Shown here one piece after another: positions 5,236-16,742 of a stretch of DNA of 31,095 nt. Position 1 is the stretch's first letter. Each line of letters begins with the position of its first letter. Made by a program: the position numbers and the translations under genes. Location: the IMG/VR virus record IMGVR_UViG_3300042377_000090, positions 1 through 31,095 of that record. One strand, given 5' to 3'. The notes beneath the pieces were generated by a model. It was not told the DNA's origin and ran no database searches. It saw nothing but the letters and a program-made list of their open reading frames with translations. Source of the stretch: a virus.

Positions 5236-5580
5236 ATGGGATTAAACGAAGTATTTAAAAAAGTATCAGCAATTAACGAGGTAACAGAGTTGTCATCACA
5301 TAAGGTTGCATTAGGAGCTTTGCAAGAAATTGAAAAAGAATTAATAACTGCAAGTTCAGGAGCTATTAAATCAATTGAAATGGCAAAAGCAGCAATAAAA
5401 CCTGCTCAAACATCTTTGCAATTAAATAAACAATTACTTGCTAAACTTCAGAGTTTTACAAAACAAATAAAAGATTTAGGAATTACTACACCTCAAAAAG
5501 AAGTTGAAACAGGTATTACCCAAGTTAAAGAAAATATACAAGCTATTGATAATCTTATCAAAAACTTATTATCAATCTAA
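5236..5580 (+). CDS. Helical head-module protein of unknown function
   Basis: A 114-residue protein, almost wholly alpha-helical by composition (Lys, Glu, Gln, Ala, Leu, Ile; no Cys or Trp), with heptad-like spacing suggesting a coiled coil from about residue 20 to the end. It lies between the small Cys protein and the probable scaffold. An internal or scaffolding-associated role is likely, since soluble coiled coils are common there. A 48-base A-rich gap precedes the ATG. No family recognised. Confidence 0.6.
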   Translation: MGLNEVFKKVSAINEVTELSSHKVALGALQEIEKELITASSGAIKSIEMAKAAIKPAQTSLQLNKQLLAKLQSFTKQIKDLGITTPQKEVETGITQVKENIQAIDNLIKNLLSI

Positions 5581-13039: not shown

Positions 13040-13064
13040 CAGCTCATAGTTTTTTGGTTAGGTT

Positions 13065-13092
13065 AGGGGATGTCGCAAGGCATCCCTTTTTT
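13065..13092 (+). terminator. Rho-independent terminator ending the late transcript
   Basis: An 8 bp stem, AGGGGATG (13065-13072) with CATCCCTT (13081-13088), containing one G-U pair. It has an 8-base loop and six T at 13087-13092. It closes the head-lysis-phosphoesterase unit and shares its 3' arm and T-run with the terminator at 7827-7854. Confidence 0.87.
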
Positions 13093-13127: not shown

Positions 13128-13320
13128 GCTTTACCCTTATTTTATGACAAGAATTTCACAAATTTGTCAAGTTTATGTGACAAAAAAATGGACATTCTAG
13201 CGGACATTTACCCTTGTTCTGTTTGTTTTATCGGACATTTACCATTATTCTATTACAAGAATGTAACATATTTACCCTTGTTTTGTTACAAACATTTGCC
13301 ACTATTTTGATTTATTGGCA
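13128..13320. repeat. Iteron-like direct repeats with nested inverted repeats
   Basis: Five related units have the consensus CATTTACCCTTGTTTTG. Their TTACC-like cores begin at 13131, 13208, 13239, 13272 and 13296 (the last is TTGCC). Later spacings of 31, 33 and 24 bases are near three turns of the helix. GGACATT occurs at 13190, 13202 and 13233. TGACAA and its complement TTGTCA alternate at about 13145, 13164 and 13177. TTACA-AGAA-TGTAA (about 13253-13266) and TTTGTTACAAA (about 13282-13292) are inverted repeats. Such a group is typical of binding sites for a replication initiator or a regulator. Nearby genes encode a DnaA-domain-IV-like protein and an O-like initiator. Confidence 0.6.
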
Positions 13321-15332: not shown

Positions 15333-15746
15333 ATGATGAAAAACGATTTAATAGAAAGAGTAACGTACCTGATTGAAAGGGATGAACTCAATAAACGTAA
15401 CCGACAAAAGCATAACATCTACAAGAAGTGCTTTCTGATGGCACAACTACGAAAAGAGGAACTAACCTTTAACGAAATAGGATCATACTTTAATCAGCAT
15501 CACGCTTCAGTTATCCATAATATCCAAACGCATAAAAATCTAATGCAGTACAATAAAGACGAATACTTGGACGTTGTTAGAGAATACCAAGTGTTCCTAG
15601 TGAACTCAAAGTATATCCTGCAACCTAGAAACATCATAGACGATGTAAATGGTTGTACAAGTCTTTATAAGCTCCTGAGAGTTAAACGATGGATTGCAGA
15701 AGGACGATATAAAAATTTACAAGATGATGCAACTTTATTAGAATAA
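15333..15746 (+). CDS. DnaA domain-IV-like DNA-binding protein
   Basis: A 137-residue protein. Residues about 38-70 (LRKEELTFNEIGSYFNQHHA followed by SVIHNI) match the helix-turn-helix of DnaA domain IV, where a basic helix and a DHSTV-like signature, here HHASV at 56-60, contact the DnaA box. The AAA+ ATPase domain of DnaA is absent, so this protein can bind DNA but not open it alone. It may direct the phage initiator to the repeat cluster 2 kb upstream, compete with host DnaA, or act as a regulator. Two Met codons start the frame. The second one is equally plausible. Confidence 0.7.
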   Translation: MMKNDLIERVTYLIERDELNKRNRQKHNIYKKCFLMAQLRKEELTFNEIGSYFNQHHASVIHNIQTHKNLMQYNKDEYLDVVREYQVFLVNSKYILQPRNIIDDVNGCTSLYKLLRVKRWIAEGRYKNLQDDATLLE

Positions 15747-15753
15747 GTTTCGT

Positions 15754-15761
15754 TATATTTG
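15754..15761 (+). promoter_or_regulatory. Promoter-like -7 element before the candidate RNA
   Basis: TATATTTG matches the Bacteroidota -7 consensus TAnnTTTG and is identical to the -7 of the main early promoter. No good TTTG lies 19-23 bases upstream, only TTTA at a shorter spacing (15734-15737), so its strength is uncertain. It predicts a start at about 15768, just before the 5' arm of the RNA stem. Confidence 0.5.
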
Positions 15762-15767
15762 TGAAGA

Positions 15768-15856
15768 GTTGGCTCGACACCATAAACTCAAAGGAACTAT
15801 TGAAGCCTTATAATGAAACGAAAGTCGAGCCTCGTGGATTTATAGGGCTTTTTTTT
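15768..15856 (+). ncRNA. Candidate small RNA, about 89 nt, pseudoknot topology
   Basis: The gap between the DnaA-like gene and the next gene has no frame but strong secondary structure. GGCTCGAC (15771-15778) is the exact complement of GTCGAGCC (15824-15831). AAGCCTTATAA (15803-15813) pairs with TTATAGGGCTT (15840-15850), 11 bp with one G-U, followed by eight T. The arms interleave in the order a, b, a', b'. They would therefore form an H-type pseudoknot or two mutually exclusive folds, one of which is the terminator. A -7 promoter element ends six bases before the predicted start. This supports either an independent small RNA or an attenuator controlling the downstream replication genes. I know no family with this sequence. 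Confidence 0.6.
15803..15856 (+). terminator. Terminator hairpin at the 3' end of the candidate RNA
   Basis: An 11 bp stem (15803-15813 with 15840-15850, one G-U) with a 26-base loop and eight T at 15849-15856. The loop is long for a terminator and holds the 3' arm of the upstream stem (15824-15831), so the two pairings can compete. Confidence 0.68.
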
Positions 15857-15876
15857 ATGTTTAAAATTTATTTATT

Positions 15877-16086
15877 ATGAGAAGATTAGTGATTTACAAT
15901 TTAAAAGAATGTTTTGAGTTTGGTTTAACATTTAAAGATTTAGCAGAAATTGAGCAAATAGCGCAAAAGATAGAACCAGCTACACCTCAAATACTAGCAT
16001 TTAATTGCAGTTTTAATTTTATATCTGCTAAAATAGATAAGCTAGGTAAAATGACTTTGTATTATGAATTTAAAAGTCCTTTCTAA
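15877..16086 (+). CDS. Small protein before the replication initiator
   Basis: A 69-residue protein with Phe, Ile and Lys well represented and two Cys (residues 13 and 44). It follows a terminator, so its transcription depends on read-through or on control at that hairpin. The leader AATTTATTTATTATGA resembles the CAATTTATTATGA before the Erf gene. It shares one base with the next ATG (TAATG). No family recognised. Confidence 0.5.
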   Translation: MRRLVIYNLKECFEFGLTFKDLAEIEQIAQKIEPATPQILAFNCSFNFISAKIDKLGKMTLYYEFKSPF

Positions 16087-16742
16087 TGAGTGGATGGATT
16101 AAATTACACAGGAAGTTTTTAGATTGGGAGTGGTTTAATAAATCCGAAGCAGTACATTTGTTTTTATATATGCTGATAAAAGCTAATCACAAAGATGCTA
16201 AATGGCAAGGTAACGATGTTAAACGAGGTCAGTTTATTTCGTCTTTAGGTAACATTTCTAATGCTACTGGAATCAGTATTCAGCAAATAAGAACCATTTT
16301 AAAAAAGTTGGAAAAGACAAATGAAATCGAAGTAAAATCAACAAGCCAATTTACTATAGTAACTATCTGTAAATATGAATGTTACCAAGATGAAAACGAA
16401 ACTACTAACAAGCCATTAACAAACAATCAACAAACGACTAACAAACCATCAACAACAAACAAGAATGAAAAGAAAGAAAAGAATAATATATATAGCTTTT
16501 TAGATTCTTTAATTCAAAATGGATTTGATGAAAAATTATCAAGAGATTGGATGGAAGTTCGTAAGCAATTGAAAGCAGTAAATACAGAAACTGCATTTAA
16601 CGCATTTATGCTTCAGGTAGAAAAACACGGAGGTAATAAAAACGAAATACTAAAAAAATGTGTTGAGCGTTCTTGGAAAGGATTTAATCACACTTGGATT
16701 GAAAAAGAACACGACAAATTATTAGCAATCCTAAACAAATAA
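16086..16742 (+). CDS. Replication initiator / helicase-loader-like protein (lambda O-like)
   Basis: A 218-residue protein. Residues 1-100 read MSGWIKLHRKFLDWEWF, then ANHKDAKWQG, VKRGQFISSLGNIS and a winged-helix stretch TGISIQQIRTILKKLEKTNEI. This is the build of phage replisome organisers of the lambda O/DnaD type. A polar Asn/Thr/Lys linker (about 108-132) joins a C-terminal helical domain (about 135-215) that would contact the helicase. The helicase gene follows directly, 3 bases after the stop. It probably binds the origin, perhaps the repeats at 13.1-13.3 kb, and recruits the helicase. Confidence 0.72.
   Translation: MSGWIKLHRKFLDWEWFNKSEAVHLFLYMLIKANHKDAKWQGNDVKRGQFISSLGNISNATGISIQQIRTILKKLEKTNEIEVKSTSQFTIVTICKYECYQDENETTNKPLTNNQQTTNKPSTTNKNEKKEKNNIYSFLDSLIQNGFDEKLSRDWMEVRKQLKAVNTETAFNAFMLQVEKHGGNKNEILKKCVERSWKGFNHTWIEKEHDKLLAILNK

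Follow-up and report, generated by a model that had tools for sequence, protein, structure and literature searches.

A predicted kissing-hairpin RNA beside the replication genes of uncultured Bacteroidota phages

We have analysed a stretch of phage DNA of 31,095 nucleotides (the window) and describe an RNA from it, predicted through comparison with relatives, which is two hairpins, H1 and H2, locked to each other by loop-loop pairing between a sequence in the H1 loop (a) and its complement in the H2 loop (a'). That a structured RNA with kissing hairpins is real we regard, on the covariation presented below, as practically beyond doubt, and the RNA is very probably an independent transcript. 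In a subset of relatives a third copy of the H1-loop sequence (a'') precedes the start codon of the next gene. The explanation of the observations as a whole towards which we lean is that of a self-terminating kissing RNA, in which the H2 loop would be a specificity element that gates translation of the downstream gene.

The RNA and its surroundings in the window

The window is a 31-kb uncultured virus record from a tailed phage and holds nearly all of its predicted genes on the + strand. Its proteins include portal, head protease, tape measure, endolysin, exonucleases and terminase, together with a DnaD-like loader, a DnaB-like helicase/primase, NinG, an Erf-like protein and a sigma-like factor. 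The best isolate matches of the terminase are Flavobacterium psychrophilum phages, at 54% identity, and no integrase or repressor was recognised among the scanned window proteins. The RNA lies in a gap which the original prediction had called gene-free; indeed, no gene fills positions 15747-15876, where the only overlaps are short ORFs. This gap separates the gene of a DnaA-domain-IV-like protein from a 69-aa ORF, which is followed by a DnaD/O-like gene. The features of the region are as follows.

15333-15746, + strand: upstream gene, encoding a DnaA-domain-IV-like protein of 137 aa (Pfam Bac_DnaA_C, E 7.5e-6, below the curated cut-off, 26.3 vs 31.5 bits)
15754-15761, + strand: TAnnTTTG promoter box, TATATTTG, of Bacteroidota sigma-A type, with predicted start at 15766
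15766-15856, + strand: whole predicted RNA, about 91 nt, matched by covariance model R1
15766-15770, + strand: H1 stem, 5' strand, GAGTT (5 pairs, 3 changed on both sides, 100% paired in 21 sequences)
15771-15778, + strand: H1 loop sequence a, GGCTCGAC, pairing with 15824-15831 (6/8 pairs changed on both sides, 100% paired)
15785-15789, + strand: H1 stem, 3' strand, AACTC (covariation, RNAalifold)
15790-15803, + strand: linker, a conserved A-rich and TATT stretch common to both structural types
15804-15813, + strand: H2 outer (terminator) stem, 5' strand (10 pairs, 5 changed on both sides)
15818-15821, + strand: H2 inner stem, 5' strand, ACGA (4 pairs, 4/4 changed on both sides)
15824-15831, + strand: H2 apical loop sequence a', GTCGAGCC, kissing partner of a
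15832-15835, + strand: H2 inner stem, 3' strand, TCGT (covariation)
15840-15849, + strand: H2 outer (terminator) stem, 3' strand (covariation)
15849-15856, + strand: T run, completing the intrinsic terminator (at least 5 T in all aligned homologues)
15877-16086, + strand: downstream 69-aa ORF of unassigned function, with no third copy of a at its start site
16086-16742, + strand: DnaD/O-like replication protein gene (PHROGs phrog_2514, E 1.1e-31, DnaD-like helicase loader)

The sequence elements from which the original prediction had started are present. The 8-bp pair of a with a' is exact, the 11-bp pair between AAGCCTTATAA at 15803-15813 and TTATAGGGCTT at 15840-15850 is real and includes one G-U, and a TAnnTTTG element and a terminator with eight T stand at the two ends. 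The two arms inside the RNA are the sole copies of GGCTCGAC and GTCGAGCC in the window. Covariance model R1, which was built with the window sequence included, matched 15765-15854 at 95.8 bits (E 1.5e-17) and gave no other significant match in the window.

Comparison of relatives fixes the position of the putative promoter, since 101 of 106 distinct upstream contexts have the TAnnTTTG box 2-6 nt ahead of H1; the background frequency of the box is 0.85 per kb. In F. psychrophilum this box covers positions -12 to -5 (PMC9723704), and the +1 of the window RNA is therefore predicted at 15766, the first base of H1; the 3' end should fall within the T run. The U-G wobbles in the outer stem of H2 are compatible only with + strand RNA. 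An independent RNA of about 90 nt, one of the two possibilities originally proposed, is thus supported by the box at its 5' end and the terminator at its 3' end, and it is from these signals that we infer transcription itself.

Other parts of the window and of its relatives also contain features that we record here. Type I relatives have differing, unrelated ORFs, 55-75 aa in length, in the interval from the RNA to the replication gene (15877-16086 in the window), which gives it the look of a site where small genes are exchanged. The segment from 13130 to 13320 has few genes and carries 4-5 copies of TTTACCCTTNTTNTGTTACA/ATGACA repeats, which are possibly iterons of an origin or operator; a similar repeat occurs in contig L260. 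At 13060-13092, directly 3' of an exonuclease gene, a hairpin followed by T (AGGGGATGTCGCAAGGCATCCCTTTTTT) is likely an ordinary terminator.

Covariation of the helices among relatives

The folding energy of the single sequence is not outstanding (z -1.37) and was uninformative, and a generic terminator scan gave nothing at the element because of its long interrupted loop. It is the comparative evidence that places the element beyond chance. A search of IMG/VR with the upstream protein yielded 39 loci, all of which (39/39) carry a version of the RNA in the same gap, and the pairs of these RNAs covary. Since this first set of homologues was found by the neighbouring protein and not by the RNA, whereas the parser used for the type I members of a later alignment (A3) demanded complementarity, the unbiased claim for a/a' pairing rests on these 39 loci. 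They contain 28 distinct elements, with perfect a/a' complementarity in 27 and 7/8 pairs in the remaining one, from locus L030. The L030 element (5422-5523) looks chimeric, in that it joins an H1 loop of class CCTTCGAC to an H2 loop of class CATCCGAC, and it suggests recombination inside the RNA.

In an alignment of 21 type I sequences, all 27 pairs were formed in every sequence (100% of 567 cells), and 18 of the 27 had changed on both sides. The covariation score was 0.652, compared with 0.217 for shuffled and at most 0.087 for slid alignments, and RNAalifold independently recovered three nested helices, namely H1 and the inner and outer stems of H2. Between these last two is an internal loop rich in G and A. 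The a:a' pairing covaries across many loop classes. Further sequences were found by pattern and are thus preselected for parts of the motif; from the matches we removed by hand about 16 loci that were unrelated coding sequence. A second structural type (type II) follows the same plan with other loop sizes, the loops being exactly 6-7 nt in both hairpins; its stems covary, and its kissing counts are complementary by construction. The type II internal loop, AGTA/GAA, we take to resemble the loop E motif. An alignment of all protein-found elements (A5) was too diverse to be used for a collection scan.

The compensatory changes in homologues that the original prediction had named as its check are seen in both of its stems. 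It had overlooked two others, a 5-bp stem (H1) around the upstream arm and a 4-bp inner stem of H2 around the downstream arm, and these alter the interpretation. The interleaved pairing stands, as part of a structured RNA; a simple H-type pseudoknot without further stems does not, since covarying helices hold both arms, H1 enclosing the upstream one in its loop and the inner stem of H2 closing off the downstream one. A switch that works by the upstream arm drawing its partner away from the terminator does not agree with the observations either: the partner occupies the terminator's apical loop and is closed there by a covarying 4-bp stem of its own. Because both arms sit in loops of their own covarying hairpins, all four predicted helices are compatible with one another in a kissing-loop RNA. 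It is possible that the RNA governs read-through into the replication genes, as had been offered with the switch.

The family was found in well over a hundred uncultured phage contigs; the hosts of the carrier phages are Bacteroidota. Most elements are preceded by a homologue of the DnaA-domain-IV-like protein, with identities from 100% down to about 25%. Isolated phages gave no relative by blastn with five queries or by tblastn with the DnaA-like protein, and the type I pattern, the last letters of which excluded the loop class of the window, had no match in 84,980 bacterial and archaeal species genomes. The type II pattern gave 41 matches in bacterial and archaeal genomes, none of them with the structure. 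As originally stated, the RNA belongs to no named family: the window had no match in Rfam 15 at the gathering threshold, and at relaxed E-values the element and five relatives gave chance-level matches only, with none to C4. The family is absent from Rfam 15; a description elsewhere in the literature, of which our search covered part, is possible.

Copies of the H1-loop sequence at downstream start codons

No search pattern included sequence downstream of the RNA. Among 34 distinct type II elements, 33 have an exact repeat of the H1-loop sequence 0-4 nt ahead of the following gene's ATG, and part of the type I elements of class CCTTCGAC have a'' as CTTCGAC, 1-3 nt before the ATG. Comparison across 62 distinct pairs of loop class and start site, representing 15 loop classes, detected a'' in 20 pairs, and all 20 copies were cognate to the RNA upstream of them, with no non-cognate copy; 10,000 shuffles gave 2.0 on average and never more than 9. 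The kissing would then set specificity, as the exclusively cognate occurrence of a'' suggests.

The next gene is usually a replication gene, and a'' stands before unrelated replication-type proteins as well as NUMOD/HNH-type endonuclease genes; at least 8 different a'' sequences occur, and one downstream protein family was found with several a'' classes. Since the same a'' precedes unrelated proteins and one family has different a'', the third copy tracks the RNA and not the protein. Translation starts in F. johnsoniae are A-rich and low in structure, and translation there is sensitive to structure near the start codon (PMC6847099); a GC-containing loop copy at a start site is therefore unusual.

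Several observations were made at individual start sites and loci. At MAKDK-type genes that follow a type I RNA but lack a'', TTTTTGCA(G)ATG is a frequent start region; it is possibly what remains of GTTGCAG after a class swap and subsequent decay. In two loci (L011, about 1105-1122, and L042, at the second downstream gene) weak 6-nt cognate matches were noted just before a replication gene past a small ORF, too few to count. At three different places (L036:6517, L201:3387 and L149:4703) phages have a second RNA of the same plan, of class GTTACGG, directly before a NUMOD/HNH-type endonuclease ORF, in addition to a replication-site RNA of another class; the GTTACGG-class RNA and the endonuclease may constitute a mobile unit.

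In the window's own phage a'' is absent. No copy of GGCTCGAC was found beyond the RNA in the window or in the 7 related contigs that share its loop class (28-33 kb in 6 cases), which have two copies each, both inside the RNA. The CATCCGAC class likewise has no third copy, save for one isolated extra match in contig G003, and across 3042 start sites we observed no excess of third copies for classes lacking a''. A comparison of the window H2 loop with the phage's own start sites by RNAduplex gave no outlier target. Regulation based on a'' is thus not universal in the family, and in the window class, which has no other copy of GGCTCGAC, selection on complementarity acts on the RNA itself. In this phage the RNA most likely keeps its kissing structure and would serve as a small RNA of its own, as a terminator-attenuator upstream of the replication module, or as both; candidate roles are those of a small RNA with a host target, a terminator-attenuator and a competitor of other phages.

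Possible modes of action and relation to known systems

Under the explanation we favour, transcription would start at the TAnnTTTG promoter (about 15766 in the window) and stop at the T run after H2. The two hairpins would lock by a:a' pairing, H2 doubling as the terminator and its loop, a', serving as a base-pairing specificity element. In relatives that have a'', a' would pair either with the H1 loop, leaving the start site open, or with a'', covering it; the RNA would in this way gate translation of the downstream gene, with H1 as a built-in competitor. We judge such translational gating through a'', in the relatives that possess it, to be probable. A trigger that frees a' from H1 would be required, since the intramolecular kissing should normally win over a''. 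Because a'' is transcribed only once polymerase has gone beyond the terminator, it cannot influence termination in cis, and would have to act on translation or in trans. Repression is the simplest direction for the effect, in view of the sensitivity of F. johnsoniae translation to structure near the start codon and its preference for A-rich starts.

A leader terminator without a separate small RNA, which sets run-on into the replication genes through a ligand, protein or ribosome acting on the kissing, would also account for the phages without a''. With only about 10-25 nt from the end of the terminator to the next start codon, and with the promoter just upstream of H1, the layout is that of a classical leader. 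However, terminator and kissing pair are not mutually exclusive, we saw no conserved anti-terminator pairing, and such an attenuator would leave unexplained both the wide variation of loop identity and a'' itself, which is transcribed only after the termination decision; we think it unlikely as the sole function. A role for a':a'' pairing in activation, with the H1 loop or the terminated RNA as competing antisense, is less likely still. It has a counterpart in repZ of plasmid ColIb-P9, where a pseudoknot reportedly opens or recruits the start site and where a loop partner is reported to compete with pairing at the rep start site. The three-way geometry is alike in the two cases, with a loop, a loop competitor and a copy just before a replication initiator gene. 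Yet non-systematic inspection found no structure that hides the start site and that would thus need opening, and pairing 0-4 nt before the ATG should block the ribosome.

The identity of a and a'' could also be read as two sites for one phage protein, a translational autorepressor, the complementarity of a' being merely structural; autoregulation through operator mimics is common. We consider this very improbable. At least 8 a'' sequences stand before unrelated proteins, and DnaA-like neighbours more than 90% identical occur with different loop classes, so that a single protein could not follow a''; RNA-RNA pairing is favoured over a protein site by the same distribution, including the one family that is found with several classes. 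Scarcely credible, in our estimation, is a DNA element, either origin iterons or a single-stranded DNA fold of the kind proposed for the STAXI motif. The location beside replication genes, and a, a' and a'' as inverted and direct repeats, would suit it, but the U-G wobbles of the outer stem fit + strand RNA only, H1 comes exactly behind a promoter and H2 is followed by a T run, and repeat identity tracks no protein. A further extension of the translational account, which we regard as speculative and improbable, is a phage counterpart of plasmid incompatibility: each class would silence those replication genes, whether of its own phage or of a co-infecting one, before which the cognate a'' stands, and phages without a'', such as that of the window, would be producers that had escaped from their own control. 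Such typed competition or immunity is compatible with a spread of 15 or more loop classes, with classes having been swapped between genomes and with the lack of non-cognate a''.

Known systems share parts of this arrangement. The CI RNA of phage P4 has a segment complementary to repeats on either side of it in the same leader and acts in lysogenic immunity. The present RNA differs in its setting, with no integrase or repressor among the scanned proteins of the window and with the type I pattern absent from the bacterial genomes searched. The C4 RNA of phages P1 and P7 (RF01695) has three stem-loops, uses the two loops a' and b', and is released from a longer transcript by RNase P; C4 and c4-a1b1 motifs are listed in PMC2864571. 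Like C4, the RNA described here is a phage RNA on the strand of its putative target, and the variable loops of C4 pair with target mRNA and cover the ribosome-binding site (PMC5320573). A C4-like complementarity of the loop to the downstream start is present in 33/34 type II and some type I relatives, and is absent from the window phage. In contrast to C4, there are two kissing hairpins, one target-binding loop, a promoter of its own and an intrinsic terminator, with no match to RF01695, and the presence of a promoter immediately ahead of H1 speaks against excision by RNase P from a longer precursor.

In the I-complex plasmids, loop-loop kissing (RNAI/SLI) controls the replication initiator, and differences in the top loop set compatibility (PMC10724649). 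There, RNAI is an antisense RNA from the opposite strand, whereas the promoter, terminator and G-U pairs found here place the RNA on the strand of the downstream gene, with all parts on one strand and changing together in one molecule. The STAXI motif is likewise a pseudoknot near DNA-handling genes of mobile elements (PMC2864571), but it consists of pseudoknots repeated in tandem and possibly functions as single-stranded DNA; the present element is set apart from it by G-U pairs, a promoter and a terminator. In summary, the RNA works like C4 and like the kissing control of the I-complex, yet fails defining features of both.

The covariation is strong enough to settle the structure of the RNA, and the cognate third copy leads to a testable prediction, that one loop chooses between two identical partners to control phage replication. 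Control by small RNAs has been little explored in phages of Bacteroidota, where mRNAs are without Shine-Dalgarno sequences, and the many orthogonal loop classes of this family could serve as natural switch parts.
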